From contig NW_003149773.1 in the NCBI RefSeq assembly GCF_000003605.2, positions 18,809-82,808 on the forward strand: a stretch of 64,000 nt of DNA, given 5' to 3'. Shown piece by piece: positions 207 through 55,183 of the stretch. Position 1 is the first letter of the stretch. Every line of letters begins with the position of its first letter. The position numbers and the translations under genes are program-made. This DNA comes from Saccoglossus kowalevskii (Eukaryota > Hemichordata > Enteropneusta > Harrimaniidae). A model generated the notes under the pieces. That model saw nothing but the letters and a program-made list of their open reading frames with translations. It was not told where the DNA came from and made no database searches.

Positions 207-3200
207 TTATGTTACAAATGCATCATCGTTATTTTCTTTTATATCCAAAGTCGTTATTAAATGTTCACCAGTGTCATCATAAACTTTTAGATGACAACTT
301 AAGTTTAATGTCTGAACACTACATGTGGCCTCGGGTTGATCTTTGTAAGTTGAGTCAACTATGAGGAAAGTAGCTGATGGACAGGGTCCAATTCCATTGC
401 ACTGCTGCCATATCGCCACATTCGGTATCACCTGCAAAAGGAAAGTTAGAGATAGCATAGTCAATGCACGTAATTAGTTAATCGACGGTAGAATTTTACT
501 GACAAGGTAAACGTACCTTTCCTGTGCCATCCAACGTTCTATGTCCATCACATAGCTTCTCCATTTTTATATTTAGCCCTTTCCCATTTTTACTGAGAAC
601 AAATCCACTGTCATTGCCAATTTTCTTTCCACGCAGTGCTAACTCTTTGACATTTACGAGCTGGAAAACAAATAAATCATCTTAAATAGTTAATTACCCG
701 ACTTATATATATATGCATTAGAGTGCATTCATTTTTACATTTTTTTGTCTGAAATAAATTGGGCGCCATGGTCGGAATCGTTTTCTGAATAGTTCTCATG
801 GTGAAGACAATTCTACATGGTGATAAAAGGTTAACATAGAATATATCGTAATAGATAGTCTACTTTGTGGTATTTTGACAAATGTTTTTGGAGGTTAGTA
901 GGTTCTACATGTTATTAGGTTCTAAATGTGACCCCTTCTTTTAGTTTGGAAATACCACAATGGTTTGCCATTTGTATTTCCGAGCGTTGTGCCATATTAT
1001 GAATGCATTATATCATTGAACATGTATAGTTGATCAGGGTCTGACCCGATTGCCATTACGTTTCTACAGCATTATATATTTACCTCCAGATCGGCAGCAG
1101 TGTCTCTCCATACTCTGACTCTCAGTTTTGAAGATGCAATGTTCAAACGAGTGATAAATGCTCCAATTCTAAATTTCATTTGGTTGACGTCACAGATAAC
1201 AGTGTACATGCTAAGAGTATCAATGAATGAAATGGAATCTTCACCCTGTGAAATGCAAAATACGCGTCCTTTCTCACTTACATTGTACCAGTGTGTTGAG
1301 TGCTTCATATCGGTATCACTCGCCCATAGTTTAAGTTTACCAGGTGTGACACCCGCACCCAAATTGTGCTTCACTGATAGAAGAATATTTTTTCGGAACT
1401 TCCGACCATGTGGGCCAATTCTGATAACAGGGGACAATGCTGTTTCATTGGCTCCTAGCCGGTGGTATTCACGATCAACTAGTGACACAGAAATGTGAAT
1501 ATTTTGAGGTTCGTCGTCCTCTGATAAAGCTCCGGGCGGGATGAACAAGTTGATTCCAGACAGTTCGATACTTAGATGACCTCCTTCATAGTTGAACTGC
1601 CCCGCTGCGAATGTGTTTGTGGTGAAGTTGGTAGATGACAATACCGACCTGTCTGGAAGTTGATTAACAATGTTGTTAAATTGTGCTATACATGATAAGT
1701 CATACGCATGATCCTCCTTCCAGTTGTACACTTCCGATGGGCACTGCAGAGACAAGGGACTCTCGGCCCTATCATTCTTAGGCAGTGGCAAATGTATGTC
1801 CACAACTGTTTGTTTTTGAGCACCAGATTCAAGTGGAAGTGCCATTATTCCAGATTCCCCTCGATCCAATAAAATATCATCATAAGGTACCGAACTGCCA
1901 CTTTTGTTATTAGCACAATCTTCAAAAACTGTTTCAAAGGGCATGGTACTTTTATTTCGAGACGGCACAAAGCCAGAACCTATTCCACTATCAATAGCCA
2001 TTGCTGGAGACTTCATATTAGTACGGTGTTTCAAGGAGGTAATGGGATTTGAACGTTCTGCATTCAGTTTTTCTATTGTATCCGTTGGGGCAATTTGCGA
2101 TATGTCATTTTGAGTACTCTGGTGTTTAGATGACTGGCGTGTACTGTGTTCCAATACGCTATTTAGAGACACAGGGTGTGGCACATCATCACTTTTCGTG
2201 CACTGTACACAGTTTAGACAACGCAGAAACAGAAATAATACCACAGATAAGACCACCAAACCGATGGGAAATAAAATCAATATAAACTGTGTAATTTCTA
2301 ATGCAGTATCTATGGTGCCATGCGGCTCGGCAAATCGAATAAAAAACAAACGTTGCACTCTTTCCAGACAACTAATACCAGCAATCAGAACAAGCAAAAC
2401 CAATGACAATATTTGCATATGATTAGTTCGTTTACTATAAAATGGCTGCAAAACAGCGTGGACACAGACCAAAATTGCACAGATACTGACCATCACCAGC
2501 GATTGCAGGAACGCATTCAAAATATAAACATTGCACCAGACTAACACCAGCTTAGTGAATAGGAATACACTTTCCCAGTATCGTGATCCGACTTTAAAAG
2601 GTGACTGTAAAACCTCCAAAATAGGGTAACTGTGACCATTATCGTCCATTTTAATGTAATCCTTTGATGTCTTACCATGTGCGCAATAATAGCAGTACAA
2701 CCAAACAGGAATGAATGGTAAAGGAAAGATACATGCAAGAAGGTACTGGGAAACGCCGATGTATTTCTTCTCGAGTAGATATGCACCCAAAGAAACAACA
2801 ACACAAAAGGGGAATAATGCAGTGAACACATAAACAACAGAAGTATACCACACCCATTCCCAGGATTCGACAGTCGGGTCATACGTTGTTTCAGGTTTAT
2901 TATTTATCTCTGTGGTGTGAATTCGCTTGAGCAAGCGTTTCAACAATACCACATAACCCAAGATAAGTATCTGCATATATGCCTTTGTAATACGACTATT
3001 AAATCTTGAGACTTTCCTCGGACATTTCGTACATCGGATTGAACATTCTCTGCATACGACAGAGCCAAATACGTATTTGGAACCAACGATAACCCACAAA
3101 AATAACAGTAATTCATATTGCCACGAATTGAGAAATACCTTGCTGTTATTGTCTACACATGTAGTTAGGAATGGAGGAACCATTTGAAAATTGAACAGCT

Positions 3201-6200
3201 TAACGACAAAGATTTGGACGCTTGAAATATGTGATCGCGGAAAGGAGGTGTCCTCCACAATTAGAAGATCCACTACTTGGTAAAACAAGAACACAATCTT
3301 AACATAGTCATCAGATGACTGCCATGGCAGGCCATGTTCCCGTAGCCACGGTCTTTTGTATTCATCGTTTTTAATACTTGGTTCACTAGAATGGCTTGGA
3401 GATATGTCACCGCCGTCATCGTCTGAATCATTTTTCTTTTCACTTTTTATTTTCATGATATATGTCTGATATATGAACTCTGTCAGTTCCGATTTGAATA
3501 GTAGGAACAAGTAAAACAATAGAACTCCTAGAATAAGAAGGATTATCTGCCAGATAGCCTGTTCCTTTGAGCAATCTGAAATGTGAACGCACGCAGTCGA
3601 ACCAAGAACATTGTAGTACTCATCTTTGCATCTTCTGCATAGAATTCCCGTGCGATTTCTTGGACACGAGTTGAAGGATGGACATTCGTGCTGGTCGTGG
3701 TTATCACAGCAATATCCAGAAGGACATGGCTGGAATATTGCTTTGCTTATCAGCGATGTATTGTCTTGGTAACCCCACTGGCCTGGTCTGGCGTGGACAT
3801 GTGCATGTTCACAATCTCCTCCTTTCGGGCATGGTAAACAGTCTATGGGGTACACTTCCCATCCCGAACTGTAGCCGTGATCGAAGCTGTAGGTTGATTT
3901 TGAACAAGGTATGCAATTAAAAGATGAAATGGTTCCGCCATTCTTGCAAACGCTGTCTATAGCTATGTTATAGCCAGAGTCACATCTAATGAGTGTCTCA
4001 CTGTCGATGGTATAGTTTAGTTTAGCACTGATGAACACAGCTGTAATGTTTGTCAGAGATGCTGATGTCACTATAAAACTGGAGTTTGATATGTCTATTA
4101 TGTTGGATATGGAAAAAAGCAACTCCCCGTTCTGTGATGAAGATTGATCACCCTGTACTCTGGTTTCAAAAGAACTGTCAATAATCTCTAGTATTTTAGT
4201 GTCAATATCGTTGTAGACAGAGCCACCGAGAAACGTGGCGTTGTTATCAACCATCGTTACGTTAAGGAATGTGACATGGCCTCCATTAAGGTAAATACCA
4301 CCGCCCTTCCCGGTTTTAAATGTATTAGATACAGAATTGTGGAGTATTGACATGTTTGAAAATATCAACTCTGAAAAGTCTGGTGTATCAGCATAAATAG
4401 CGCCTCCCATTTCCCTTGCGTTATTGTGATTAAAAATACAGTCATTAAAAAATATGTAAGAACGGATATTATAATCAATTTCCATGTTGTGTGTTTCTTT
4501 AATTACTGAAACGTATCCGTCGTCATTGGAATCCATTTCTTGAAACATATTATCCTGCAGGGACGGTGTTTGTGTTGGCATTGGCCCGTCAGTCTGCAAA
4601 GGTCCAAGATGGAGGGCGCCGCCAAGCTCATTGGCGCTTCGTGAAATTTGTACTTTGGTGGCTTCAACTGTCAAGTTCACTGAGCCGATATTTGTCAATA
4701 CTAAACTGCCATAACGTGTATTGTCTTGGAAAAAAGTATTTGATACCATCACTGAAACAGTACTATTATTTGAACTGTTTGACTTGGGTAACACTATCCT
4801 TAAACCGCCGAAATTATTCAGAAATCGGCTAATATTGATTTTCAGGCACATATTTGCATTTAGTATCACGCTCCCTGGCTCGTACCACACTGCATAGCCA
4901 TCTTGGGTATTCGAAAACACGCAGTCAAATACGTGTAAATTAACACCAATCGCAGAAATCGCACCATTGTCATATGTCAGCGCTGAAATATTGACGAACG
5001 TCAAACCAGACAGTGTTACTGAAATTGGTTTAGTGCTTGGTATTCCGTAGAACGAAAACACATTACAGCGATTTCCCCCACTAATATACGCCGGTGAATT
5101 CGTGCCTTGAATTGTAATTGATTTGTTACATGTCAGCCCGAATCCATCAAAGGATGCGCAAACTTTGTACGGGTTATTTTCACTGTTTCTGCCGTCAATC
5201 TTCAATGTGTCGCCGTACTTCAACAATAGCCATGCATACGCTATGGTTCGGCAAGAATTGTCCATACTGGTTCCGCAACCGTTATAGTCGAGACCACCAA
5301 TGGATACGAATATATCTTTCGTCAAACCGTCGCATCCTGTAGAATATATATCGTATGTTATTGTGCAGTGTGAAAACTCGCTCAATTACAGGTTTCTTTT
5401 AATTTTATTAATTGTCTGATTTAATATTTTTTAAACAAGTCAGTGATTTGGTGATGTGATGAGGATACACGATTGCTGATCATTCATTGCATATTCATAC
5501 ATAATTTAGAGTATGTATAGATTTGTGTATATAATATTAAAAAAAATAAACACCAAAACGTAAAAATGAAAATTGTGTTGAATAATTAATGTGTTTATCT
5601 GCCTAAATGACATTAGATCAGCGCTCTACGATTAGAACGTACGGTCGGTACTATGAGCTCAACTCGAGAACGAGTCAAGGTGTGGAGAATTGTGATTTTG
5701 CCAACAAAAATGACAAAAAACGGTATAATATTCGTCATTGAATAATATAAGATATAACAAGCGATATAACGTCATCACATACATTACAAATAGTAAAAAT
5801 GATGTCATCATATTTTCTGCACCAGATTTAACATTTCAAAAAAAATCAAACTTACCAGACGAATGTTTATTATATATCTGTTCGTCGCAACACATTTGTA
5901 ATTTGGAATTGTAGACGAGTATAGTTTGTATTCCACAGCATCTTCTATTTGTAATATCCAGCTCATCTGATCCCAGGAAAACGACTCCATTGCAGCACAG
6001 GTCAGTTTCTGGTCTGAATGTTTGTCTTCCGCAACACGATACACGTTCCGTATCGCCAGCATCCATGTAGTGTGGGACACCGTCACAACAGAGCTCATGC
6101 AACGGATCATAGGTGTCGTTACCACATGGCAAATCTAGACGTTCCGGAAGTGATGCAACTGTACGTTGGCTTAAATCTTGGCATGTTTCGTCGTTGGATA

Positions 6201-9200
6201 CGTTTTCCTTATCTGCAAAAAAAGTACAATTATTACATAATACAACAACATAAAACATTTTCTAACAATATAAGTCTTTATAACATTTCATTTTTCAACA
6301 AAATTTAACAATAGTCAAATGCTTACTATGCCCTATAACAACTTGTCCATTGCAGCAGGCTTCGCGGGGCGGATTGTAGACTGTACTAGCACAACAGTGG
6401 GCACGCCCATTTCGTATACGGATGATTTTTTTATTACAGCACATGTGAGTCTCGCTGGAGTACGTCCTGTGTCCACAGCATCTTGACGAAGAAGTGTTCA
6501 TGTGCAAATGCTGTCAACGGAACGAATTATGATTATGTGTTTGTATCGGCATATAGACTATGAGTAATTTTTTCTAAAGGCATTGATATGTACTAGCACA
6601 GTCTCCCAACACCTGTAGTACTAGTTTAGTCATACTTTTTCAGGTCAACTTCATTAATTTATTATTAAAGCGAGTGATTTGTGTGCCATATCCATCAATA
6701 TCATATATACAAGGCATAATTTGATACGTCGAAAATAAACTTTCAACAAACAAACAAACTGATTCGTTTAACTGATATGTGTTCGGACGAGTGTCTCCAC
6801 GTAAGATGTCCCTTCTTCAAATCACCTCTGCCACAGCTTGATTATGCATTTATGCAAATTGATAGGTCATTGATAGGGTCAAACCCGAACTATATTTAAA
6901 TATGGCGGAGTTCGCGGCAACTTTAAAACGTATTCTGAATGAATACAATTCTGATGTGGAATTAAAACCAAGTTATGGAAAGTGTATGGAAGAGAAAGAT
7001 GTAATACTTTCCTTGCCAACTGGGTATGGGCCGCCGTCTTGAATAACCGAACAACACCTGCGTATTGATATGTGGCAAATCATGGCGTAAAAAGGCGCGT
7101 GTGGCAGAGGTGTTAGCCTGCTTGCGCTATGAACTCTGGGATGGAGAATGGTGTCAGGATTGTGTAATCTTGTAAGGAGCTCTGCACTGACTCGAATGAT
7201 GACATGCTTACCCCTTTACAGCATATCTTCTTGTCAGAGTCGAATGCCTTCCCTCCGCAGCACATCACACGTCCTTTCCCGATAACAGAATGCACCCATG
7301 CCACGCCCTCGGAGTCGCTACAACATATTTCCGATGAACTTGTGATGATACGATACTGATCAGTTGTGAGAGGTCCGCAGCAGGAATGGGTGTCCGGCAT
7401 GTATGGTGTATCCCCACCTGCGCAAATTACGGGAAAAATTGTATTGCGTAAATTGTTGAACAAATAAAGTTGAGTGACGCGAAAAAAAAGATACAGGCTA
7501 GTTTTGCTAAAGCGTTGTGACTAAAGCTTTGTTTGCAAGATATTGTTAATGAATGTAATGCTGAATTTTTGAGGTATTAAGTATAACATGGTGAATATTG
7601 TGATTATTTTACCAGCTAACATTCAACTTCTCGTATATTGGCTAGTACAAAAGTCAAGTATTACATGGATTAAAAGAATGCGAAAAACAAAATGAACAAA
7701 GATCGCAGCCAGTTTTTCGATAATAGGTGTAATAAAATCGATCTCAATCAGAAATTGAATTGAAATTTAAATACTAATAAATTTAATCGTCGTATATCAA
7801 AAGAAGGTTTCAGAAGACAGAACTAAGATTTGTGATTGCAAAACATATTTTTATTACTAACTAGTAGCTTCACGGTAAGTGGCTTTCGCGGTAAGTGGGT
7901 TTCGTATTTGGGGAATCGCGCGGGGAGTAGGGCTTTGTCGCAGTAACTGGTCTTTTCTTCGCTGTTGAGAATTAAAGTTACAACTGGCACTATTCTAGGA
8001 ATACCAACCTTAGAAGCTATTAATTTGCCATTTTGATTTGTGATGTTGCTCTCAGGCTGGCAGGAGTTCCAAAATAAGATCCATGCTCTGATAATGCCCA
8101 TAGTTTCAAAAACCAAGAAACATTATCATTATGATATTATTGCAAAGGATAGTTGAATATTGTTTATTAAAATTAATAATCCCCATAACCGTTTTCCAAT
8201 ATAGATAAATTATAGTACGCAACTAATATATAACTCAGTCTCATCAATGAAATAAAGAAATATATATATATTTACATTATTAATAATGCATTGCAATACA
8301 ACTAATTAAATTGAAAGAAATTGCAATATGAAATATTGCGTCAGTAACACTTCTCAAGGGCGTATTTCGCGGTCAATATTATTTACGAAAATATTTGTTT
8401 ATAATTTTATAAATTGGCTTGGCAATTTCCACCCCAATTAGATATAATGTGTACATATTTTAATAAATAAAATTAAAGATACACTAACAAAAATGAAATA
8501 TTAATTATTGGCGATCCGCTCCATAGGATTGCCCTTATAATCACTCGTCGTTTTGTGTGTGTGATTTCCAGTGTTTTTACGTATTATTTCTTCTGTGATT
8601 TTTTTTGGTATGGCCAATTTTGCTCAAACTTGGTAGGTAGGTCACACATTCACCCTAGTTATAAGGAAAAATATGGAAAAAAAATTGGCCAACCGTAGCT
8701 CATTCTACTCAGCTTGAATGTGGGCACTAAGTTACTGTTTGAATTTTTGATATCTTTTTCATTACCGAGAAATTTGACCCCAAAGTTGGGGTAACTTTTC
8801 ACCAGCAACGGATTTTAACTTCTCTGTGATTTTTTTGGCTGGCTGATTTTGTTCATACTCACAGGTAGATCGTACCGTCATTAATTGACGAAAAATCCTG
8901 GCCCATCACTGCCATTGCAACAGGCAAAAACTGATTTTTAAAATTGTCAAGTTCGAGAGTGTGTTTTTACGTACAGTGACGCGAACAGTCAACAACTTGT
9001 TGAACAGGAAGTCCATCGTGGGCTAGTGGCATTGTTAAATTTTATAGAGTACAGGAAATGTGTCATTAAGGAATTGTTATGCATGTCAAAATCCTTTATT
9101 GGAACAGAACATGTTATATATTCACCAAAAACAACGTTGCCATGTTTCTAGGCGTACAACGAAATGGAAACAAAAGAAATCATCCGATCCAAACCACAGG

Positions 9201-12200
9201 CGCTCGACTGCCTTGCAGCCATGCCTGTGCTAGCTGTAACTTGAACTCTTTTGGTTTTCCTCAAATTCCTGATTAGTTCAATCTGAGTTTTAGTCTTGCC
9301 AGTTCCAGCTTGTCCCGTTAATAAAAAACTGTGTCCATGTATAGCCATATCTAAACTGAAGTGTTGTTGTTTATCCATTGTTATTATTGACATCAAAGCT
9401 TTACTCCACAACACTGATGAAAAGTTATTTTGAAATTTGTTGAATGCTAATAGCAAACCATTTAGCTCACAAATGACTAACTTCAAAATGGAACAAAATT
9501 CAAAATATGAAATTTGGAAAAAAAATAGAATGAATATGTGTTGCAGGTGTCAATCAGGCATCAATACATGAAAGCAGCTCAGTCAAAAACGGGTTCCTTC
9601 AATAATCTTGAACTTTCCCAAAAAAACGTTACAGTGCTGTTACAGAATGTTAGTTCTATCAGGGGGAAATCTTCGGCCTCTGGGGTTCTCCACACTTGCC
9701 AGGGGTGAATCTCGTCTCGGCTCTATGTCACGTCCCCTTGAGGTACGGGTTCGGGAAAGTCACTTATACTTTACAGTCAAATAAGACACGCACAACGAAA
9801 TACGTTTCAACTTTCGTCTTAGTCGGTCTTTTGAGCACTCTATAAGACACAGCGCCCTGGGGAAAAGTGCCCAAGACTATCGCAAGGCTGACCCAAGACT
9901 CTTTTAGACTGCGTCAAGGCTCACCCCAAGTCTCTCCAGGACTGGACTTAGACTGCGTCTATCGTGGAGTACTCGCTAAGACCATGGAACTATAGTTAGG
10001 GTTTATAGTTCCATGCTAAGACCAACTCAAAACTCTCTTTATTCATTTTCAAAACTCTAACCAATTACAAAACAGTAAAAAGACTCTAGGGCGTAACCTT
10101 CAATCATAAAGCCAATCACACTAAGTACTGAATACGTCATATCTTTTGATTAATCGTTCACTACATTAATAACTACGGATACCAACTGTCAGAAATCGTA
10201 GTCAGAATAGCGACGGTTATCTCGTAATTAGTTCCAAATCACTGAGCCACGTTCCGTCCAAAACTTCAAATAGGCCTAAACGATGACAGACATAACACAG
10301 CAATTCGCTAATAATCAGCTAATTAAGTCGGTCAACAGATACGCGTAAACTAATTCATGACAGTTCACTGGACTCTGCCTGTCATTGCATATAATGACTT
10401 TGAATGTGTACACTTAAGCTTAATAAGTACTACCAAGGTCATATACTTAAATAACTAATTGTATGCGTGTCCAATATGGCGACCAAGGGCTGAAACATTG
10501 TTATGCAAATTAGCTTTAGTTGAAAATTTGAGTTTTCCCCTCGATATCTACGTGAATTTGAAACAAAATGTTATGGGCAAGACTCAGAATACGACTGTGA
10601 CAGCCACTGAAACGCAATTGAAAGCAAATGAACACGTCAAGCAAAAAAACAAATTCGAGTCGTGGCGTAAAATGAAGGCACATACTATTTTGACTCTTCA
10701 GGGGAATGGAAATCAGTTGATTGGAGAGTGTCACAATAAGCAAGAGAGTAAATCGTTTTTATGCTATGAAAAAATGCAGACCTTGAACGTATCTTTTGGA
10801 CTTTAGTACAACTTCATTTGTGTTGATTACCTAACGTTTATAGGGTTATTTGCTGCAAGTAACGAGTAAATATTGTCATCGGTGACACGTGCCATCTACA
10901 TTATTAATATCATTATTTAATGAGTATATACGTCAAAGACACAATTACCTTGCAAATGTATTAATATTAATTCCCAATAGCTTATAAGTTTGAAAACTCC
11001 ATGCGTATTCTGAAATATATGTACATATTTTTTACGCAAAAAATATTATTTTTTATTAAACAAATTATGCCTGGGAGACCAAGACCTAGACCAAGTCATC
11101 TACTTATAGCCGTATAAATAAACAAGTATCCCTGAATATCAATATATACATATTGTATGGAATACTTGAAATCTACACAATTGGTGAAAGCTATGGATAT
11201 CTGACGCATGCGCAGGTGACGACTCCCCGATTTAATTTCACTGAAACAATGAAATAAATATGTCAGTTATTGTATTGGCACTACATGCTTATTAGTTGTT
11301 TTTATTTTGGATCGAACATATACCATTATGTGTGCTACAAAAAAAAAAGAGGTTATGTCACGATAAATTGTAATCCAATTTGTTCACAACAATACCAAAC
11401 CGATATGTTTCCGTCAAAATTACATCCGTTGATTCTTAAACAACTATCCGATGCCTATACTTACAACAACGAAGTGACGGAGTTCTTTCAATGTTATATA
11501 TTTTACCGTCACAACAAATTTCCTTCACGGGATCATAGCAACTACCACCATCGAGGGAATAACGTGGCCGGCACAGGGCACACGTAGAGCTGATTGCTGG
11601 GTTACTCGTGTTGCCCCCATGCAGCGGTACCGTTCTAAATGCCATTGCAGTTACGCTTCCTACAAAAATAAACAAAACAATAGGTCACTTGTTTATGTGT
11701 CAATGACGAGTTTTATAAAAACTCAGTTGTTATTTTTTTTCAAAATTAGCGAAGACACACTAACTTTGAAAGCGAAAGTGGTGTCGCGAAGTCTTATAGA
11801 CAAATTTATTTTTCTTAAACCGATATTAGTTGAAGAATGCTATACAGCAATATACCTTTAATTTATTTGTTGTGGGTACAGGGGGCAAGAAACTGTGGCG
11901 AAGTGCAACTAGTTATGACTGTTTTTTTTTTCGGACGACGTTGCCCGGCTTATCTATATCTTTGCGACACCATTACATGTTCATACAAACACGTGAAGCA
12001 TGGTGCGTTGCTTATCGCGTTGCCTTATGCAAACTGGCAGTTAAACTTTAAGGGCGGCCGGGTGGTCGTCGCGCAGCGCGTGTTCGAATTTCATGTAAAT
12101 AATCAATGTATTTTACACGCGTTGTATACGTCGCTATGGTGCGACGACTAACGTCCTTTAAAGCTACAATGATAACAACACACGCTAAAAACGCAAAGGC

Positions 12201-13326
12201 TCATGGATAGACGCTTGTTTGTAAACATTGAACGTCATGACCATCTGACGCATGTACAGGTGATGACTCCCCCGCTTTAATATATGGATTTGGATTTCAT
12301 AACGTTGCCACTTCGGTTNNNNNNNNNNNNNNNNNNNNNNNNNNNNNNNNNNNNNNNNNNNNNNNNNNTTCGTTCTATTGTGGGTTCATTAACCTTGAAG
12401 AACCGTAGTCGTCGTGCCGCGCCCTGTTCGATATGGGACGCATAGCGACGTATACAACACGTGTAAAATACATTGTTTATTTACATGAAATTCGAACACG
12501 CGCTGCGCGACGACCACCGCGCTTTAATATAAATTGTCGACCATGTATAAAGGGCGTGTCATTTTATAACCGGCTTCTAACATGGCTATACCCCCTCCAA
12601 TAATAAAATGTTGCATTAGATTAACTAATTAGATTAACTAATCATGTGTGTTCGTTTGTCGATCTCCTGTCAATCAAGATCAGCTGACAATACCACGTTC
12701 TAACTAACTTCTCTCAATTTATACAGAGAATATAAGTCGTGAATCCGGCGATCTGATTGGTGGAGGGCGCATAGCCATGTTATATTAGAATGCTACTTTG
12801 CTTATGGTAGCCTCGTTTTCAGCTTCAGATTTCTTTTGGGGGAATTCCCTTATTCATATCGAATACAGCTTCTAAACATCTCCTGTTGCACGTACAGAGC
12901 GCGTGATAGTACTTTATTACATGCACTGGCAGTTGTTCAACAATTATAGACATTGTGGAAGTATGGTCGATTTGCTATTGGTTAACATCTTATAGTCCAA
13001 TACCGCCAGAGAATGGTGAGTCATAAATTCTACAATGTGTTTGTGTGATTATGGGGACCACACCTGACTTCCTACGGTACAGTATTTGCTATGTTAAACC
13101 ATGGAGGTAGAAAAGTCTCTTTTCTACCTCCATGGTTAAACTGGCTGTTGACCGAATTGTATTAAAGTAATGTAACGACATAAGAACTAATCTAAAGCAG
13201 CAAAATAATACGTATACAACAACAAAGTTTGTCAGAGAATCAGCGGAGCTTACCTATGAACAGTGTATTGAGTATCCATAGAAACAGTAACTTCAATGTC
13301 ATATTGATAGAACGGTACCGCTGCAT
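207..13326 (-). CDS. Galaxin-repeat / beta-helix / multi-pass membrane receptor with cytoplasmic ZU5-UPA (8 coding exons)
   Basis: Exons in transcript order: 13326-13254, 11659-11465, 7417-7212, 6510-6327, 6212-5856, 5336-1084, 660-517, 431-207. All introns are GT-AG, the phases agree at every junction, and the total is 5637 nt (1878 aa). Residues 1-24 form a signal peptide; the second Met (residue 9) gives the better one. Residues 25-338 contain about 15 Cys-Cys pairs in CCG...YxP...CCxG repeats, as in galaxins of coral skeletons. Residues about 345-780 look like a right-handed beta-helix (pectin-lyase type). A Cys-rich stretch (about 789-932) leads to about 9-10 hydrophobic helices (933-1376), reminiscent of TRP-like polytopic proteins. 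A polar linker (1377-1580) precedes ZU5 (about 1587-1720, with an IPPGAL motif) and UPA (about 1740-1870). No death domain follows. A cell-surface receptor role is inferred. The large exon has no ATG; its open frame begins at a TTG just after an in-frame stop. The acceptor at 5337 instead continues the galaxin exons in phase 1. Joining the galaxin exons to the receptor exon is the least certain step; the ZU5-UPA end is secure. Confidence 0.78.
6823..7112 (+). mobile_element. 290-bp TIR element carrying a truncated RecQ-like helicase N-terminus
   Basis: Perfect 13-bp terminal inverted repeats (CACCTCTGCCACA at 6823-6835 and its complement at 7100-7112) bound the element. Inside, an ATG at 6902 opens a 46-codon frame. 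It ends in LPTGYG followed by PPS and a stop, where RecQ-family helicases have the Walker A sequence LPTGYGKS. The helicase start is therefore cut inside its nucleotide-binding loop and cannot work as an ATPase. The element lies wholly in the intron between exons 3 and 4 of the receptor gene. I see no obvious target duplication. Confidence 0.7.
9148..9486 (-). pseudogene. Fragment of a PIF1-like helicase (P-loop and motif Ia only)
   Basis: A 112-codon frame holds a perfect Walker A, GQAGTGKT, followed about 25 residues later by TASTGMAA. This pair is typical of PIF1-family helicases, including those in Helitron transposons. Similarity fades straight after motif Ia, and no Walker B or later helicase motifs are visible nearby, so this is a broken copy. 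It lies in a receptor-gene intron in the same orientation. A source in a Helitron or in a PIF1 host gene cannot be separated from this fragment. Confidence 0.6.
9657..10362 (+). mobile_element. Putative solo LTR, copy 1 (706 bp, 4-bp target duplication)
   Basis: Shares most of its length with 25264-25942. Both copies start TATCAGG and end CATGACA, giving a short imperfect inverted terminus (TRTCA/TGACA). This copy is flanked by GTTC on both sides (9653-9656 and 10363-10366). Size, termini and 4-bp duplication fit a Gypsy-type solo LTR, although the start is TA rather than TG. It also carries a 40-bp hairpin insertion that copy 2 lacks. Family name unknown. Confidence 0.6.
12046..12163 (+). 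mobile_element. MITE-like element, copy A (TIR near CTTTAAGGGCG)
   Basis: Starts CTTTAAGGGCG and ends CGTCCTTTAAAG, with GGTCGTC / GACGAC just inside the ends. A near-complete inverted copy lies at 12406-12530 and a third copy at 20696-20832; a partial copy is near 62119-62190. The internal sequence includes TTCGAATT and TTTACACG. No coding sequence is seen. Confidence 0.6.
12319..12368. other. Assembly gap (50 N)
   Basis: A fixed-length run of N between two inverted copies of the same MITE. A palindromic arrangement often breaks assembly, so the true distance and content are unknown. Confidence 0.95.
12406..12530 (-). mobile_element. MITE-like element, copy B, inverted relative to copy A
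   Basis: Reverse complement of the element at 12046-12163 over roughly 100 bp (GCGACG, TACAACACG, TTCGAACACG and CGACGACCACC segments match in order). Together with copy A it makes a large imperfect palindrome around the gap. Confidence 0.6.
13093..13141. repeat. Hairpin insertion flanked by 7-bp direct repeat GTTAAAC
   Basis: A perfect 16-bp hairpin stem (13100-13115 with 13119-13134) and a 3-nt loop sit exactly between two copies of GTTAAAC (13093-13099, 13135-13141). The site is in the first intron-side upstream part of the receptor gene's exon 1 neighbourhood. It is one of four such structures in the window. Confidence 0.75.
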
Positions 13327-13665
13327 TTTGGGAGTCAAAATTGTACTACTAATACACGGTGATCATGCGTTGCTTGCATGAGAGAATGTTGCATTTCTAG
13401 TTACCCGAGTTGCCTTAATGCAGATCAAACCATTATTCAGGAGGGGTTACTGGGATGTTGCAATGGTGTGCATGTTTGTTGTAATGAATGAATCATGAAT
13501 GAGACAGTTTATCTCATTGATACCTAAACTGAGAATGTATTTGAGGTAATAATTACAACATTACAATATTCTATATACATGGAAATAGAGAATTTAAATT
13601 CACGCAATTTGAACACACACCACACACGAATGAAGTAACCTTTAACATTTTCATTGGCAGTTGAA

Positions 13666-13676
13666 GGGGATTCCCC
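13666..13676 (-). promoter_or_regulatory. Candidate NF-kappaB/Rel site upstream of the receptor gene
   Basis: GGGGATTCCCC is a symmetric match to the Rel consensus GGGRNWYYCC, 340 bp upstream of the first ATG of the receptor gene. The surrounding CCCGGGGGAATCCCC (minus strand) recurs almost unchanged at 14627-14641. The binding-site role is inferred from sequence alone. Confidence 0.45.
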
Positions 13677-13753
13677 CGGGCCGATCAAGACTATCTTGCC
13701 ACTGTATGCGTAACTCGACAAATGGCGCTATATTTTACCCGCTTCAATTACAG

Positions 13754-13933
13754 TAACTGTAAAATGATTAATTTTCACTAGGTTTAAATTTCGCTGATTT
13801 ACCATTTCAGGCATATTCAGTGGGTTTTAAATTCACGGTTTTATCATTTAGATAATGTGTTCTATGCTAAATTTTACATATTCACTGGGTTTTAATTTAG
13901 GGCATTGAATGAATAATTAACCCCTTTACAGTA
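13754..13933 (-). mobile_element. MITE-like element of the TACTGTAAA family
   Basis: Bounded by ACTGTAAAATG and CTTTACAGTA. Internal phrases (TTCACT-GGTTTAAATTTCGCTGA, AATTCACGGTTTTATCATTTAGATAATG) match the element at 51728-51939 in the opposite orientation. Related elements occur at 42405 and 46366. Non-coding. Confidence 0.6.
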
Positions 13934-14394
13934 TCACATGCTGGTTAATGTTCTTATGGTCAGTTTATATTTGCAGGGTTAAGACAAAATCCTAATTCGG
14001 GGGTATGTTTTTATTGGACTGTCGCATCAAACCATTGTATATACAAAAGTCGACGAAATATATGTTATATTTAAGCATATCTAATTAACATACTTACTGT
14101 CAATGTACGGTCAGTGATTGTTCAGATTTGACAATCTCTGCTTAAACCCCTTATGCAAATATTGTTCTCAATACCTAGCATGCATCTCGATTTTATTGTA
14201 TGAATTAACATTTGTTGAGAGCAACGCTACCACTTTGAACGTGGGTATTCTAAGCCTTTATAGGCCTTTAAAATGAAGCATGCTTGTCAATTCCGGAAAA
14301 TCAAATATCAGAAAATTTTCATGAAAAAAATCCCGAATGTTATAAGAAATTCTTCTCTTCACTACAATAAAATCCCAAGCGTCGGACATGTTCT

Positions 14395-14935
14395 TCGTCT
14401 TCCACTGGATTAATCCATCTTGCACTTTGCCCCATGTTTAGGTAGAATAGCAGGTAAGTGCATGTGCATGCACTATTTACAAATTTGAAACAAGGACACA
14501 ATGTTCAAACGGCAATCTCACATTTATATATGTCGTGTCTAGGACATACATTAAATCGCAAACTTTTCTTTTCACAGGCAGTTTCACAGACGCCATTACG
14601 CCCACACCCTTGCAAAGTGAATACACCCGGGGGGAATCCCCTCACATCATGCAAATTGTGCTATAAATATAAAAAGGGGAAAACCAGCATTCCGATCTGA
14701 TAACGTATTAGTTTCAATTCATTTGCATATTACCAATTTATATTTATATGAACTGTAACCTTGAAATATACAGTATATAAATGCCCGTCGCATAATAAAC
14801 AGTCAGCTGTTGTTACACGGGGTTGCTAGACAGATGTCAACAACTCAGTACATGTACCCACTACCATACTTTCTAGAACACAATTCGTCCAATTAGATAT
14901 GTTTAGTTTATCCCTTTATTTATTCGAATATATTA
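14395..14935 (+). repeat. Segment related to 16590-17105 (copy 1), with decayed signal-exon-like start
   Basis: Shares the sequence around TGGATTA-TCCATCTTGCAC, CCCCATGTTT, GTGCTATAAATATAAAA and later parts with the second segment 2.2 kb downstream. An ATG at 14390 opens a short hydrophobic frame that ends in TTTAG just before a GTAGAA. Two bases are missing relative to the downstream copy, so the exon is probably dead here. Confidence 0.5.
14627..14669 (+). promoter_or_regulatory. kappaB-like site, octamer and TATA box cluster (copy 1)
   Basis: GGGGAATCCCC (14631-14641), a perfect POU octamer ATGCAAAT (14649-14656) and TATAAATA (14662-14669) occur in 40 bp. The arrangement resembles an inducible core promoter reading on the plus strand, with initiation expected near 14.69 kb. 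No exon following it could be recognised. Confidence 0.4.
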
Positions 14936-16568
14936 ATCATCGTTGAAAATCTGCAATTTTAATATGGCAATTAGAATGACACGTTTTATTGTTTCAACTT
15001 GTAGTACGAACAGGAGTTTATTTACGAGAAAATAAACGAGCGCCCTCGTGTGGCCAACGTTTCATAAACGTAGTTTTAGAATAAAAGTTGTGGAATTGTT
15101 AACTGTAACTTTACTACACACCCACAAAGATGTACTGATTTAGTCGAGTTACATGATATTATTTACAATAGCATTATACACGATACATGCAGTAAACTGA
15201 GCTAACATAATGCCAGTTCAGTGGCGGCCGCACCGGGGGTCGGGCGCCTACGGGGCGCAAGGGATGGTGAGCAGATCTCGCCCCATTCAAAATTACGTGC
15301 CGCCGCCTCTGCGGTTAACAAACCATAGCGGTTGCACTTGTATATGAGTACACCTGTTTACAGGCATGCGTAGATTTAGAGAAATATACGTACTTCCAGA
15401 ACTATGGGTCACATGACAAAGAGTGGTATACACAGCAAACAAAACGGGGGGGGGGGTCAGTACTGGCTAATTTGAGCAGAGATATAAGGATGTGGTAAAC
15501 TGAATGTTGATACTATTTGGATACTCATCTAATGAATGGCTCGCTCATTGACCTTCGATAGCGGCAAAGTTGATAGACTTAATTAAACCTATCGGTTCTC
15601 AGATCATACTACAAATACTGTATTAATCGAACGGTCTCTTATATTGAAAATATACCATGGATTATAGCTAAGTTTTCAAACACTACCCAAGCAAAATTAG
15701 GCAGGGAAAAATAGTGGATACATTTTAGGTTGCACACAAATCTGGTCAAAAAGAAACTGTATTGTATGGCAGGGCATAGTGGCAGTACTGAGAATAACTC
15801 TCTAGTGCACTTTGTCGTTTTTTGTAAAAAAAATAATAATGAATATAAAATGAATTTTGTTTATGTGCATCACAATAGAATTACTTTGACTAAACAAATA
15901 ATACTGAAAATAATGATCCCTCAAAATAAAGATTAACGAGACATTGTATATCTATCATGATTACATAATAAACGTTACGTTAATACCAGAAAGATCATGA
16001 TTCCAGTTTTTCCAGTATTTATCAGTGTATTCGGTGATGGTTTGATGATACTAGTAGTTTGGATTCAACTGACAGTGTCGCCCATGAGAATCATGACTCG
16101 CACTCACGACTACAATAAAAAACGAAAGTAATCACAGCATGGGCTGTTGTTTTCAATAGTCGGAAAATGTTAAAAAGCCCCATGGCGCAATTGGCCGTCA
16201 GGTCATCCCTCGGACAAACACTGGTACGGCATATGAACTACGGTATTCGCCTATATCAACGCTTTCAGATGAGGTCGAGCCCATTATTAGATTGTAGTAA
16301 AATACTGAGTACATTTTAGATAAAGTCTCAAACACAGTTTTAGCACGTTAACCAGTCGCTGGAGCACCGAGGCAGATGTCTTGATACTGATTCAATACAC
16401 CCATTTGTGGCACGTAAAGTTATAGTTTTCCACGCTGGTCTCCAATCACCAGATCACGTCGTAGAAATGGGTGACCACCAGGTAGTCATAATTAACAATA
16501 ATTCCCTGATTGAGAAGTATACGAATTATTCCCTTCATACCTCCCCCCACCAAATATTCGTAGATAAA

Positions 16569-20832: not shown

Positions 20833-21958
20833 TATTTCTGTATTTTTTTCATTAGCCTTGCGTTCATAAATACTAGAAGTCTGATAGTTGAAATGATAAA
20901 TACATACTAATAATATGTGCCAATCATTTCACTTGAACATTTATTTTGTATTTAGGTCGAAAAGTGAAATTGAGAAGGTCATTGATGTCAAATCAGCTTT
21001 GAAATATGTAAATTTTGAAGCTAAATCTTATGTGACCCAATAATATTGGGATAGGTAAATATTTTAACAAAATTAATCATTTACATTCATATAAAACGGG
21101 GGGGGGTGGTCGAATCCATTTTTTAAAGAATGGAATAAATTACCACGAATAGTTAAAAATATTGAAACAGTGAGTTAGTGTTCTACTATTTCAAAAAAAA
21201 TGTGAACACAATTATAATACTAGATTTCCTGATAAGACTGCTTGCGCATCCCAAAATCGTCTCGCCTGTGGTGGCATATTTAGACACTGGCAGATTAATA
21301 AAGTAAATAACATTCTTACATAATCAGTAGACGTACCTATTCATGGATGTACTATTGCAGATACACATTATGCTTGGCGTTGAATGTACAAGTGATATAT
21401 TGTTCATAGATTGAACTGATGAACAAATGCGTGCTATATGTATTAAAATAGATATCCGTCGATGTATTAGGGTCTTAATGCATGCAAAACATTATTTGGA
21501 GCACATTGTTGTTTCATTGCCACACTTTAACCTGTCCCATATTTACTTTTAATGTTCATTATATAGTACAAGTTATTGCCATCAATACAAACAATAGCAC
21601 TGTGTTATAGACCATCTTCAGGTTTACATCGTGTTTCCGCCCGGTGTGTGTTTTATCTAGACAATAGAGTTAGTAACTATTTCTTGAGCAAAATGTATGT
21701 TTGTTTTTCAGTGAAACGAAGATACATCCACTCTACAACCATTGATTGCAACACACGTTAGGTTAATGATACAATTGCAATTGTTCACGGTGTTTTTTTA
21801 TTCATGTTTGTAGACACTGAATCGTCCCTCTTCAACTGTTCTAGTCATTGACCAGGTTTTATTTATGGTACAATTAGGTCAATGTGCGATGTAACTAACA
21901 CTGAACATCGCAGTCCGTGTATTACGTCTCTGAATATCCAGTTTTTCTTTACTTACAG

Positions 21959-25257
<3,299 letters not shown>

Positions 25258-31604: not shown

Positions 31605-32234
31605 ATCATCCAGAAATTTAAATAAACAATTAATTCATTTGAAATTAATGGCAAATACATTATCCGATGATCAATGATGTGACTGAGATAATTTCTTGGC
31701 AAGTTTGAACATCGAAACCAAATCAACAATATTACTAGTATATCACGCATATATTTGTTTTTGTTTTATCGTGAATTTGTTGCTCGAGGTAAGTCTCATT
31801 ATTTCTTCACTATTTCACAAACACAGCTAACTTCGCTGTTTTGCGCTTATTCTAAGGGGTCCCAGTACGTCCTTTCACGCACAAACGAACTAAAGCTCCC
31901 GGGCGAATTAATAGTATCACGTCGCGTTCGCATATCGGCAATATAATAGACTCCAGTCGTCACATGCGTACGACGATCTATACATTAACCTACCACGTCC
32001 TATTAATTATTCTATTTTAATTTTGGCATTTATATCTTTTGTATCCTGGCGTACACATGCATCTTTGCTGGAGTCTTTGGGAGTACTAATCAGAAAACTT
32101 TATCAGAGCATCTATCCTACGTGATTTCTCGTGTGGCGTACTCAGTTGCTAACTTGTGTTTAGGATATTTGCGGCGTTATAAATCACAGCCGACGTTTGC
32201 TTGCCGTTTATATTTTGTCGTTGCACCCAGTGCA
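31605..32234. other. 5' region of FAM181 and upstream of the unrecognised exon
   Basis: No clear gene. The FAM181 frame remains open for 38 codons upstream of the chosen ATG (from a GTG at 32121), but no ATG occurs there, so this is treated as 5' UTR. Confidence 0.5.
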
Positions 32235-33401
32235 ATGGCCGATGGTAACATGAATTCATCGGATGTTGGGGAGTCCGAGAATCGCGAAGGAAAAATTGGC
32301 TCCGACAATAAGTTACTACAGTTTATCAACGACGCGTCGGATAACGTGAAGACCGCCCTGGAAAAACCGTGTAACACGAAGCGAAACATAAACCACCGCA
32401 AATACTTACAGAAGCAGTTAAAAACTCATCAAAACTGGCCACCGGGTGGGCAGGGGCGCAGAGTCATAACAAGGCCGTATATTCGCAGCAATTCGCGAAA
32501 AACTAAACAGAAAAAACGATTGGATTTTACGAATTATCATGGTGACAACTATACACAAGTTCTCAACAATAATAAACTCGTGAATCTATCCAACGTTATT
32601 TATTGGCAAGATAATCAGTGCAATAACGAATGTGTCCAATACCAGGAAAACGTAACAGACTACACCAATACGCTACAATCTTACTACGACGAAGGGTCCA
32701 TGTGCGATACCCGGGACGACGCCGGTTTGAACCATCACTTAGAGAACATTACCTACTTTGCTAATAACCCCCAACATCATTACGGCAATTCATTTGACTT
32801 TCACGGAAAACCCGACTGTGATGATATTCTTCGCGAAGCAAGCCCAGAAATGTGCTACACTCAACGTTGCAACAACGAAAATGGATTTTGTGAAGAAAAG
32901 TCGTACTGTCAGTATCAAGGAAAATCGGCTTCATGCGCCGATGATCTACCGTCATTGCTCGGTAATATCTGCGCCGATAATAACTATAGTATTGATGTCT
33001 CTAACTGCAAGACATACACAAATCTGGGTAACGATAACTTCGACACGGCAATGTCATGCAGCGATAGAAGTATACAACCAACAGATGAATACAGCTGCCG
33101 AGAGATTTATCGCGATGAAGTCGGTAGCCAGGCCAGTGCGTATCCATGGAAACGTCAGGGCGATACCGGGTTCGCGTGTTCAAGAGCCGACACCGGTCCA
33201 AATTTCATCGATGATCTTCAGCTCGTTCATAACGATGGAGGATATTCACCCGGTAGTGGCAGTCCCCACAGTTGTCGATATAAAGGAAAACAGAGTGCGT
33301 ACTACGCCCAAGCTTTAGACCCCGAAGAAACGGACGTTCTTTCTACGTCGACTTTGCCATCTTTTGCCATGGCATTCTCCTCTCGTTTTTGTGACTTTTA
33401 A
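32235..33401 (+). CDS. FAM181: FAM181-family protein (intronless, 388 aa)
   Basis: The start is the first ATG in the frame. Residues about 26-65 hold the family signature: LLQFINDASDNVKTALEK followed by NHRKYLQKQL, close to the vertebrate FAM181 block (LLNFVNLASSDIKxALDK ... HRKYLQKQLK). A basic stretch (RKTKQKKR) follows and could serve nuclear localisation. The remaining two-thirds is low-hydrophobicity, rich in Asn, Asp, Cys, Ser and Tyr, and appears disordered. Vertebrate FAM181A and FAM181B bind TEAD transcription factors through a separate omega-loop motif; I see no clear LPxSFF-type motif here, so TEAD binding is not supported. The single coding exon matches the vertebrate genes. An AATAAA at 33716-33721 is a candidate poly(A) signal. 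The vertebrate split into A and B paralogues cannot be applied to this gene. Confidence 0.85.
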   Translation: MADGNMNSSDVGESENREGKIGSDNKLLQFINDASDNVKTALEKPCNTKRNINHRKYLQKQLKTHQNWPPGGQGRRVITRPYIRSNSRKTKQKKRLDFTNYHGDNYTQVLNNNKLVNLSNVIYWQDNQCNNECVQYQENVTDYTNTLQSYYDEGSMCDTRDDAGLNHHLENITYFANNPQHHYGNSFDFHGKPDCDDILREASPEMCYTQRCNNENGFCEEKSYCQYQGKSASCADDLPSLLGNICADNNYSIDVSNCKTYTNLGNDNFDTAMSCSDRSIQPTDEYSCREIYRDEVGSQASAYPWKRQGDTGFACSRADTGPNFIDDLQLVHNDGGYSPGSGSPHSCRYKGKQSAYYAQALDPEETDVLSTSTLPSFAMAFSSRFCDF

Positions 33402-38884: not shown

Positions 38885-41800
38885 CTAAACATCGAGGTGA
38901 CCAGTTTGGAATAACGTATATTGACTGATGAAATCATCAACAAAACTAGGATTCAAATGTTTAAGAGCTCTCCAGTATAAGTCACCAACTTTCTCTTTTT
39001 TACCTTTGGGATGAGTCAGTTCTAACTTAACATACGATAACCACAGGTCTGTGTGAAAAAAAAAAGATTATGTTGGTTAAACCAAGGACTATAGTCTTTG
39101 ATTAAACAGTGCATGTGCATAAGTAGACTACTGACATTATTTTAAGACAGCTAGATCCATTTAAATTATAAGTTGATATATTGGTTGCTTTAAACTTATA
39201 CTGGCAGTTAATATGCAAAATGTGTTTTATAATTACATGCACTTGTTTCAGTATTCCATTCAAAATATATAAAACAGTTTTTATTTTACCGCCAGTAAAT
39301 CTATTTTTCAGTTACCACAATTCACACCTTCTAAAATTTTTTTTAATTTGCACTCATTAATATTCGTTTACATACAGCCATTTTTTTTCATGTTCATTGC
39401 TGTACGGTATCAACTCAGATTTGGTGCACGTTTTACAGGAGATTTATATGTGGGAGCATATTTATGACAAGTTTTGATAGACAATTTATATATTTTACAG
39501 ACATACTTGGCTGAAAATATGTAAAAATGAAAAAAAAAACGAATGTACAAACTAACCAGTATTTGAAGCACCAAACTCTTGAATGGCAGCTTCATAACAC
39601 TTCCTTAATTTTATAATCTTTGGTTTAGCCTGGAGAAAGACAAATTTATTCATTAATACACATTTATATTTTCAGTGGGCCCATCAAGTTATAGAATTGA
39701 GATATTTACAACTTGGTACCCACATGCTACATTCATCTATTCCAGTGATCACATCAAGGTCTATTTATCATTCTTTTGTACATTAATTGCTGTGAATGCT
39801 TCAAGACTGATCATTACCTCTTGTGTTGCATATTAATTTCTGTATCACTGTACTGTCCTATGTATATGTGCAAATTTGTCTCATGTATTGTTATTTTTAT
39901 ATGTCCAATATCAATGTAAAAGTACATAGAGCTGGCAGGATTAGGGGATAATGAATGGGTATGTCAGTGCTTCTCATTTTCAACATATTACACACACAGT
40001 AAAATTGAAATGTTACAAAATCACAGGTGTTCGTATTCCAGATAGTGTTCATTGTAACTTCGAAGATATAAACAATTTTCTAATTCATGCTTTTTCTACT
40101 AAATTTCTGATGCATTTTGTTTTATTTTAATAATGTCACATTCACATGTATAGCCGTAGTACAATTGTCACAACAATGTTTCTGCTCATTCATACTTTCA
40201 AATACAGTAATCCTAAAACAGCAATGAAAATAAAAATATGGTGGCACTTAGATATTCCATCTCTCACTTATTCTGTCAATTGGGAAAACCATGAATAAGA
40301 AAATATCTATGTGGGAATTCAACTTTAAACAGAACACATTCTACGATCAGATCTAAACAGAAGCAGATAATTTCATCTGGCATTCATGAACTTGAGGCAT
40401 AACAAGCACACATTACCCGGTAGTTGTATTCATGATGAATCCAGTCATTTTATTTTGCAATTGAAAATAGTTGTACAAACCTTGCCACATTCAATTGATA
40501 TATACTTCATATAGAAATTCAAGCCAATTGGCTTTGATGCTATAAGCCTACAGAAAAATATGTGATTTTCTGTTAATTGCAAGATCTTGTGTAATTCGTG
40601 AAAGAAGCAAAGCAAATGTCTGCTGCAAAAATGGAACGATTTGTGTTCTAATACAGTAACTTTAATTTCCCTTTTTATAGTTCAATGTTAAAATGCCAAG
40701 CTTTCAGAGGGGAATACAAATGTATGTGATTGAGATACTTCAGGAGAGGGGGCAGGCACAGATCACCCAGACACAATCCTGATTGTAATGTACTTAAAGT
40801 AAGTTTCAATAATTCCCTGAACAAAATAAATTCAGCGAGCTTCTGAATATACATTTGGTGATTTTGCCACAATGAAAAGGTTAACACACACTACCGTAGC
40901 AATATGTAAACAAACAAGATGTACCAGTCTTAAATAATTAAAAAATTTTGATGACTAAGTATTTTTTACCTTTTGTATATTTCCTGACATTTCATAGTTC
41001 CACCAGAAAATGCTGCCCATTCTAAATATTTTTCCTTCATAAGTAGAGCTACTTGTTTGTGTTGAGTTATGCCATGCTGGGAAAAAACAAAGGTACCACA
41101 AACAAATCTATAATATTGGTAATCTGGACAAGTATTCAATAATAATCAATAATTTTTATATCATATTGCACAATTTTATATACATATCTAATAAATGACA
41201 TCAGAGTGTACATAAAATGTAAATTGCAAAAATGTAACTTTTTTTTTAGTTTTTGATAACCTAATAAAGTTTGTGAGGAAAACAATTCTGCAAAGTCACT
41301 GTGATCTGATGTTTTCCCATCGAGGTTTGCACTGCAACAGAATTTGACAATTTCCCTTGACTCAGGAAATTCATGGAAATTTGGCTTTTGCGAAAATAAG
41401 TGATTTACATTTTCTCGTAATCACTTCATTTAGCAAATAAATTATGAAATGTAGCATCCCTAGCATGATGGATATTGGTCACCAGTGATCCCTAGGAGTG
41501 TCATTATTTATTATCATGGTTGTGGTTAGTGCTGTTTTAGCTAGGTAAAACCTGTACCATACTTCCCAGGTCATAAGCTCAATGGGTACAATCTTAAAAA
41601 TTATTAAGATATGTGAGTAAAAAAGTGTGTTTATGAAAGAAAAATGTTTATTGGTAGTTCTTTTTTCGGAGTATGTGAGACGGCCCTGAAAAAGCTGGGT
41701 TTTTTGTGTGTATTTATCGAAAATATTCAACAATGAAGATAATGATGAAGATCTTGCCTTCGACTGAATATATTTGTTTCTCATTGTGGAAGTATTGTGG

Positions 41801-54868: not shown

Positions 54869-55183
54869 GTCTGTTGTATTTTCCTAACCAGCATTTGATT
54901 CAAATGTATGTTGCAGACTACGAAACACATGGACAGTTTCTTTACTGCGCATGCGCAGTTCAATCAAAAAGGATGTTGGTGTATTCTCGTTTACCAGAAT
55001 AATTGTTGTGCCAGATTTGGATTATTTGTATAATATAAACCACAGCGTACTCAGATAATTGATTTTGTCTGGAATTGTGCTGACTGCACACAGAAAACTT
55101 GTATTTTGTATCGGAGTCAACTGTAGGTCATCACGTGAAACCGAGGCTTAGGATTCCAAAACGAGGCGTTGTTAGATACCATA
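54869..55183. promoter_or_regulatory. Bidirectional UTP6/DNAAF5 promoter
   Basis: The start codons of UTP6 (minus) and DNAAF5 (plus) are only 315 bp apart. The interval contains a perfect NRF1 palindrome TGCGCATGCGCA (54946-54957), 78 bp upstream of the UTP6 ATG, and an E-box TCACGTGA (55131-55138), 46 bp upstream of the DNAAF5 ATG. No TATA box is seen. This fits a shared promoter of broadly expressed genes; the NRF1 role is inferred. Confidence 0.7.

Follow-up and report, generated by a model that had tools for sequence, protein, structure and literature searches.

In a window of 64,000 nucleotides of DNA from the hemichordate Saccoglossus kowalevskii (C3983:18809-82808 in the 572-Mb assembly, in which other copies were also searched for), we found that eight predicted exons on the minus strand, from 13326 to 207, join in phase to encode one protein of 1,878 residues. 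The predicted protein runs from a signal peptide through galaxin repeats, a beta-helix-like region, a Cys-rich region, about 10–11 hydrophobic segments and a linker to a ZU5-UPA tail and a stop codon. This predicted one-gene architecture, which a preliminary description of the DNA had put forward, is confirmed as an observation; the gene model is throughout a prediction from genomic sequence. We think the chances somewhat better than even that a single gene here encodes a predicted multi-pass plasma-membrane receptor, from galaxin head to ZU5-UPA tail, acting by the mechanism proposed below.

Gene model and galaxin head

Exon 1 (13254-13326) contains the start codon and the predicted signal peptide, MQRYRSINMTLKLLFLWILNTLFI, which covers approximately residues 1-28 as judged by eye, and it ends in phase 1. 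The galaxin repeats are encoded by exon 2 (11465-11659, phase 1-1), exon 3 (7212-7417, phase 1-0), exon 4 (6327-6510, phase 0-1), and exon 5 (5856-6212, phase 1-1). Exon 6 (1084-5336) is a single exon of 4,253 bp that extends from the beta-helix-like region (3982-5334, residues 340-790) through the Cys-rich membrane-proximal region (3562-3981, residues 791-930), the multi-pass membrane region (2218-3561, residues 931-1378), a presumably cytosolic linker of about 200 residues (1603-2217), and ZU5 (1363-1602, approximately residues 1584-1663) to the first half of UPA (1084-1362). The middle of UPA lies in exon 7 (517-660), and its end, together with the stop codon, in exon 8 (207-431), so that UPA reaches from ZU5 to the C-terminal end. 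All seven introns are of the GT-AG type, with GTAAGN donors in five, GTACGT in one, and GTAAAT at exon 6. The joined frame comprises 5,637 nt with its sole stop at the end, and the open frame of exon 6 (1,417 codons) would be expected by chance with a probability of about 10^-44 (log10 P = -44) at this base composition. The joined frame bears out the earlier description of small upstream exons with 15 Cys-Cys pairs that continue in phase into the 4.25-kb exon; a Cys-Cys motif is indeed restored over an intron, the pair at residues 89-90 being completed across the exon 2/3 intron.

The 15 di-cysteines lie in residues 73-328; when these residues were shuffled 20,000 times, the mean number was 3.8 and the highest 12. 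A sixteenth is at residue 881, in the Cys-rich region. The joined galaxin exons matched Galaxin_repeat (PF24748) with an E value of 1.2e-37 and 129.2 bits against a cut-off of 28. Exon by exon, exons 4 (5.7e-11) and 5 (2.1e-14) scored above the cut-off and exon 3 (7.8e-6) just below it (26.3 vs 28 bits), and the exon 2 frame alone gave no Pfam match. The spacing between di-cysteines is 11–19 residues in 13 of the 14 gaps and 49 in the remaining one, with 9 of the 14 gaps within 10–15. Single cysteines in residues 1-360 are found at 51, 54, 65, 230, 249, 340, and 359, of which 65, 230, 249, and 340 lie near block ends. In the accessible part of a report on calcarins, di-cysteines are separated by 10–15 residues and are repeated with flanking single cysteines (PMC12419799). 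Judged by these published features of galaxins, namely di-cysteine repeats with single flanking cysteines, the predicted head appears to conform broadly. Cys340, the first cysteine of exon 6, is located 12 residues past the last di-cysteine and may cap the galaxin array across the splice junction; however, a cysteine is also present at this position in a galaxin-less copy of the gene on contig C4189 (see below).

The likeness to galaxins and calcarins (PF24748, PTHR34490) consists of repeated di-cysteines with single cysteines near block ends. Galaxins are presented as secreted proteins in the accessible text of two papers (PMC4890752, PMC12419799), whereas here the array fronts a protein predicted to cross the membrane many times. 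From sponges, the part of the calcarin report available to us describes larger galaxin-like proteins of several domains, FN3 and laminin EGF among them, that also have a signal peptide (PMC12419799). The protein of the window carries a galaxin domain and is not classed as a galaxin, because the predicted protein runs on into a multi-pass membrane region. Elsewhere in the genome, a stand-alone galaxin gene was found at C286:644072-652431 on the minus strand, with an exon of 532 amino acids containing 30 di-cysteines (PF24748, 2.5e-79). Galaxin matches on contig C3485 were set aside; the sole long frame seen there consists of a simple tandem repeat and lacks Cys-Cys pairs.

The exon 5/6 junction and copies of the gene

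Ahead of residue 363, a position already within the helix region, exon 6 offers no in-frame start codon, and it therefore needs an upstream exon. Exon 5 ends with a strong G|GTAAGT donor and exon 6 begins with GATGC, both in phase 1, and the phase-1 acceptor of exon 6 occurs in the identical place and phase in the C4189 copy. Whether the 5336-1084 exon has a signal-peptide exon of its own had been raised in the preliminary description. A scan for a start codon and a hydrophobic stretch with a phase-1 GTRAG donor found no such exon with this consensus donor in introns 1–5. Exon 1 was the sole locus detected in 11660-16000, a weaker candidate lay farther out at 16183-16108, and the control gave 1 locus in 25 kb.

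Protein searches of the genome were performed with exon 6 and with the Cys-rich/membrane exon of the C4189 copy, and the best candidates were scored, so that counts are lower bounds. At least three copies of the gene were found, that of the window included; the other matches of the first search were to the ZU5-containing end. A tandem copy (C3983:10914-3488) lies downstream of the gene on the same strand and contains galaxin exons 2, 3, and 4, followed in the same order by the helix, Cys-rich, membrane, ZU5, and UPA parts. Exon 2 is represented there by a 62% identical stretch, and both the exon 2 donor (T|GTAAGT) and the acceptor of exon 3 have kept their place and phase. When the gene region was compared with the tandem copy by blastn, the stretches 1071-1728 (slightly past the exon end) and 3263-3348 of exon 6 and several interspersed repeats were aligned; the linker is partly common to both copies. 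The sister copy on C4189 extends from 36264 to about 28.75 kb, and its helix exon starts at 34272 with a phase-1 acceptor as in the window copy. A single signal-peptide candidate (36264-36204, phase 1) was detected in the 4.9 kb scanned, and it fits the helix exon. No galaxin was detected at E 1 or better in C4189:26178-46177 with a local galaxin profile. In 39139-43167 on the plus strand of the same contig, a ZU5-UPA exon (Pfam 4.7e-12) lies upstream of the sister copy and faces away from it, and the open reading frame after this exon matches a death domain weakly (E 0.15, under the cut-off).

Splice phases, the lack of a start codon or a consensus signal-peptide exon for exon 6, and the decayed tandem copy support one gene with the order described. 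An alternative is that two neighbouring genes lie here, a secreted galaxin (exons 1–5) and a beta-helix/transmembrane/ZU5-UPA gene with its own first exon, and that the junction is an artefact of prediction. The stand-alone galaxin gene on C286, the layout of the C4189 copy without detected galaxin, the features of intron 5 given below, and the possibility that a tandem duplication copied both genes are consistent with this alternative. We regard it as distinctly unlikely: it has to contend with the absence of a signal-peptide exon with a phase-1 GTRAG donor from introns 1–5, with the lack of an early start in exon 6, with the fit between the exon 5 donor and an acceptor held in the same place and phase in C4189, and with the same order of parts in the tandem copy.

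Several findings nevertheless weigh against a single gene. Intron 5 contains two hydrophobic open reading frames (starts 5811/5808 and 5738) that reach non-consensus phase-1 GT sites, and a scan accepting any GT as donor gave 9 candidates in this 519-bp intron, whereas a 5-kb control had 3, so that intron 5 may hold a separate start with weak splicing. Poly(A)-like hexamers are present in intron 5 at 5425, 5409, and 5403, a number reached or exceeded in 96 of 500 shuffles, and exon 5 read through meets a stop near 5836; because of these hexamers and this stop, the locus may also give a secreted product made of galaxin alone. In the tandem copy, three of the five matches contain 11, 3, and 3 stops, exon 2 has a further stop, no counterpart of exon 5 was detected, and the helix is incomplete; this copy is therefore not a working example of the architecture. 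No signal-peptide exon could be assigned to it, the scan giving a single candidate 6.8 kb from exon 2, and its order of parts would look no different if two neighbouring genes had been duplicated as a unit. In the C4189 copy the frame is broken at two places and there is an N gap, which may reflect decay or assembly error.

The galaxin exons make up three 1-1 cassettes, namely exon 2, exons 3 and 4 together, and exon 5, each with a phase-1 intron at either end. These cassettes and the galaxin-less layout of C4189 are explained most simply by exon shuffling, in which an older helix/transmembrane/ZU5-UPA gene received the galaxin cassettes in its phase-1 signal-peptide intron. The alternative history is that galaxin was lost from the C4189 copy, and three copies cannot decide between the two. 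Since exon 2, exons 3 and 4, exon 5, and the whole of exons 2–5 are all 1-1, an isoform that skips the galaxin head stays in frame. One locus might accordingly give several products, namely the galaxin-headed receptor, a galaxin-less receptor in which exon 1 is spliced directly to exon 6, and perhaps, where intron 5 is retained, a secreted galaxin. The phase-1 to phase-1 join of exons 1 and 6 around a 1-1 set and the galaxin-less sister fit this idea, which we consider rather unlikely and which would add to the single-gene reading rather than replace it.

That the gene of the window is itself a decaying or unexpressed copy is very improbable. Both other copies found carry frame breaks, whereas all 1,878 codons of the window gene are open and all its splice sites are GT-AG. 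Over 236 codons of the ZU5 exon, comparison with the tandem copy gave a nonsynonymous divergence (dN) of 0.279 and a synonymous divergence (dS) of 1.92, the latter near saturation; the resulting dN/dS of about 0.15 also speaks against decay, although it was obtained against a copy that has itself decayed.

Predicted membrane protein and ZU5-UPA tail

The beta-helix of the preliminary description rises above the Pfam cut-off only in the paralogue. Chlam_PMP (PF02415) scored 27.1 bits in the C4189 copy, above the cut-off of 20.6, and 13.6–14.5 bits, below it, in the window copy; the window helix region was assigned because the C4189 copy passes the cut-off and aligns with it over the region at 30% identity. 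A profile search of PDB with the helix region gave nothing meaningful. N-glycosylation sequons number 13 in the helix region, 4 in the galaxin part, 2 each in the Cys-rich and membrane regions, and 7 in the presumably cytosolic part. The Cys-rich region has a weak match to DUF7630 (E 0.041, below cut-off). In the membrane region, which was aligned with both paralogues, hydropathy indicates about 10–11 segments between residues 933 and 1374; no Pfam family scored above cut-off in any of the three copies, no solved structure was matched by sequence, and a profile of the region confirmed no relative among viral and prokaryote contigs. The order of helix, Cys-rich and multi-pass parts is common in unnamed animal and protist gene models, and it is in this order that the predicted protein would resemble multi-pass proteins with a Chlamydia-PMP-type beta-helix. 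To our knowledge, no protein of that type with galaxin repeats and ZU5-UPA has been described.

The proposal of a surface receptor, of presumed topology, follows from the predicted signal peptide, the Cys-rich and sequon-rich front and the many hydrophobic segments. Single-sequence AlphaFold models of the membrane and helix regions had mean confidence scores (predicted local distance difference test, pLDDT) of 47.6 and 34.6, both too poor for structure comparison, and it counts against the receptor reading that these two unusable models would not fix the membrane topology.

The ZU5 domain matched PF00791 with E values of 2e-14 and 2.7e-15. A ZU5-UPA profile was built from seven hand-trimmed rows of this genome, drawn from ZU5 places among 32 matches. 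Its best match and longest aligned stretch was UNC5B (3g5b, 2.3e-22, positions 9-183 of 184), followed by ZO-1 (6.4e-18), ankyrin-2 (9.4e-12, best stretch 54-178), and ankyrin-1. The match to UNC5B supports the earlier identification of a ZU5-UPA module as in UNC5. UPA had been placed on two exons; exons 7 and 8 do carry it, and it already begins inside exon 6, where profile positions through 183 align to 3g5b. The UNC5B alignment reaches query residue 227, within exon 7, and exon 8, which has partial counterparts in both paralogues, is assigned to UPA by its position. UPA alone gave no Pfam match and only chance-level PDB matches, so that the second half of UPA rests on position and paralogues. 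At the position of the exon 6/7 boundary, a GT in phase 0 is present in all seven ZU5-UPA sequences, with ends picked by eye (GTAA in five, GTAG in one, and GTTG in one).

UPA is not followed by a death domain, the stop codon being at 207-209 in exon 8. No death-like frame was recognised by eye among the listed minus-strand open reading frames of at least 60 amino acids in C3983:10001-20000, on which Pfam was not run. The accessible part of a paper on CARD8 and NLRP1 reports that these proteins self-cleave at an SF/S motif (PMC3210808). An SF/S-type motif was not detected in the window protein; there is no FS pair in residues 1570-1878, and the eye-aligned site reads TLS. CARD8/NLRP1-type self-cleavage and release therefore appears unlikely from the predicted residues. 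In three of the seven ZU5-UPA sequences, those of C4415, C4188, and the plus strand of C4189, the eye-aligned site reads HFT.

The window protein shares with the UNC5 netrin receptors a ZU5 followed by UPA at the C-terminal end. UNC5 proteins have immunoglobulin (Ig) and thrombospondin (TSP) domains and one membrane pass, whereas the window protein has about 10–11 hydrophobic segments and a galaxin/beta-helix front, and neither Ig nor thrombospondin domains were found in it by Pfam. UNC5B has a death domain after UPA according to the available portion of one paper (PMC8897508), in contrast to the stop in the window protein. As far as the accessible text of two reports goes, UNC5B can do without its death domain, and its UPA suffices, both in a VEGFR2 assay and in binding to LRP6 (PMC5123080, PMC8897508). 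PIDD and CARD8/NLRP1 (FIIND) share the ZU5-UPA module, and differ from the window protein in that the latter has no FS pair in the interval given above. TRADD-N proteins fused to UPA-Zu5 in animals likewise join ZU5-UPA to unusual partners; in the part of their description available to us, these fusions sit in apoptosis and immunity proteins, and neither galaxin nor the present layout is mentioned (PMC8195603).

Proposed mechanism and significance

The predicted residues make a membrane receptor that senses or anchors matrix likely. We propose that the galaxin array would form an outer head laddered by disulfides, which exon shuffling would have added to an older receptor at its phase-1 signal-peptide intron, with the head outside the cell and the ZU5-UPA tail presumably inside. 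The sequon-rich beta-helix and the galaxin head might bind extracellular matrix or surface polymers, and binding would be relayed via the Cys-rich collar and the membrane bundle to the tail. Although it lacks a death domain, the tail could use UPA to recruit partners or the cytoskeleton, as the UPA of UNC5B can by itself. We infer, in line with the preliminary description, that the protein may sense matrix or microbes and signal through ZU5-UPA.

Alternatively, ZU5-UPA could serve as a cytoskeletal anchor as in ankyrins, with the membrane part a channel or an adhesion bundle, in which case the protein would tie matrix to cortex and would not signal. The profile matches to ankyrin-2, ankyrin-1, and ZO-1 and the improbability of CARD8/NLRP1-type release point in this direction, against which UNC5B is both the best match and the longest stretch; the membrane region, lacking a Pfam family or solved-structure match, neither supports nor excludes a channel. 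We give this anchoring role a minor share of probability, no greater than that of several products from the locus. More tentatively than the receptor reading, and with the balance against it, we suggest that the protein may represent a new receptor class, which combines a galaxin/beta-helix head, a many-pass bundle, and a ZU5-UPA tail without a death domain, and in which a 1-1 head cassette would re-aim an older receptor to galaxin-type or mineral-associated matrix.

What is known of galaxins concerns secreted proteins associated with the skeletons of corals and sponges, and their function apart from minerals is not settled. A galaxin array fronting a membrane protein with an UNC5-type tail would, if true, give them a cell-surface role in an animal and provide a handle on their binding partners. 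The locus also offers a clean candidate for class 1-1 exon shuffling, and the genome still retains a galaxin-less sister copy, which suggests that the head was added as an exchangeable exon block. A full-text literature search, which covered neither most subscription papers nor sequence databases such as nr, found no paper combining galaxin with ZU5 and none combining ZU5 with pectin lyase. For galaxin together with a transmembrane receptor architecture, only a coral skeleton paper surfaced (PMC4890752), and galaxin occurred together with hemichordates in two papers. An unnamed gene model of the locus may already exist.

Intron 2 of the gene contains a fragment of a PIF1-like helicase (9151-9549, minus strand, Pfam 2.3e-6), probably a mobile-element remnant. 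The adjoining repeat (9654-10368) has two counterparts on C3983 with about 85% identity, and one of the two lies in the tandem copy, between its galaxin exons 2 and 3. The assembly also includes a mitochondrial contig of 17,037 bp. In its cox1 stretch, ATA aligned with Ile in 5 and with Val in 2 of 7 cases, AAA with Lys in 1 of 1, and TGA with Trp in 4 of 5, AGA and AGG were absent from the aligned part, and the tRNA-Lys has the anticodon TTT; this code suggests a hemichordate. On the plus strand of the window, open reading frames of 375 and 463 codons at 21937-23064 and 32010-33401 had no Pfam match at E 0.01, and 55142-61166 contains exons of a gene for dynein axonemal assembly factor 5 (TPR_DNAAF5, 1.9e-114), with further HEAT repeats at 60687.

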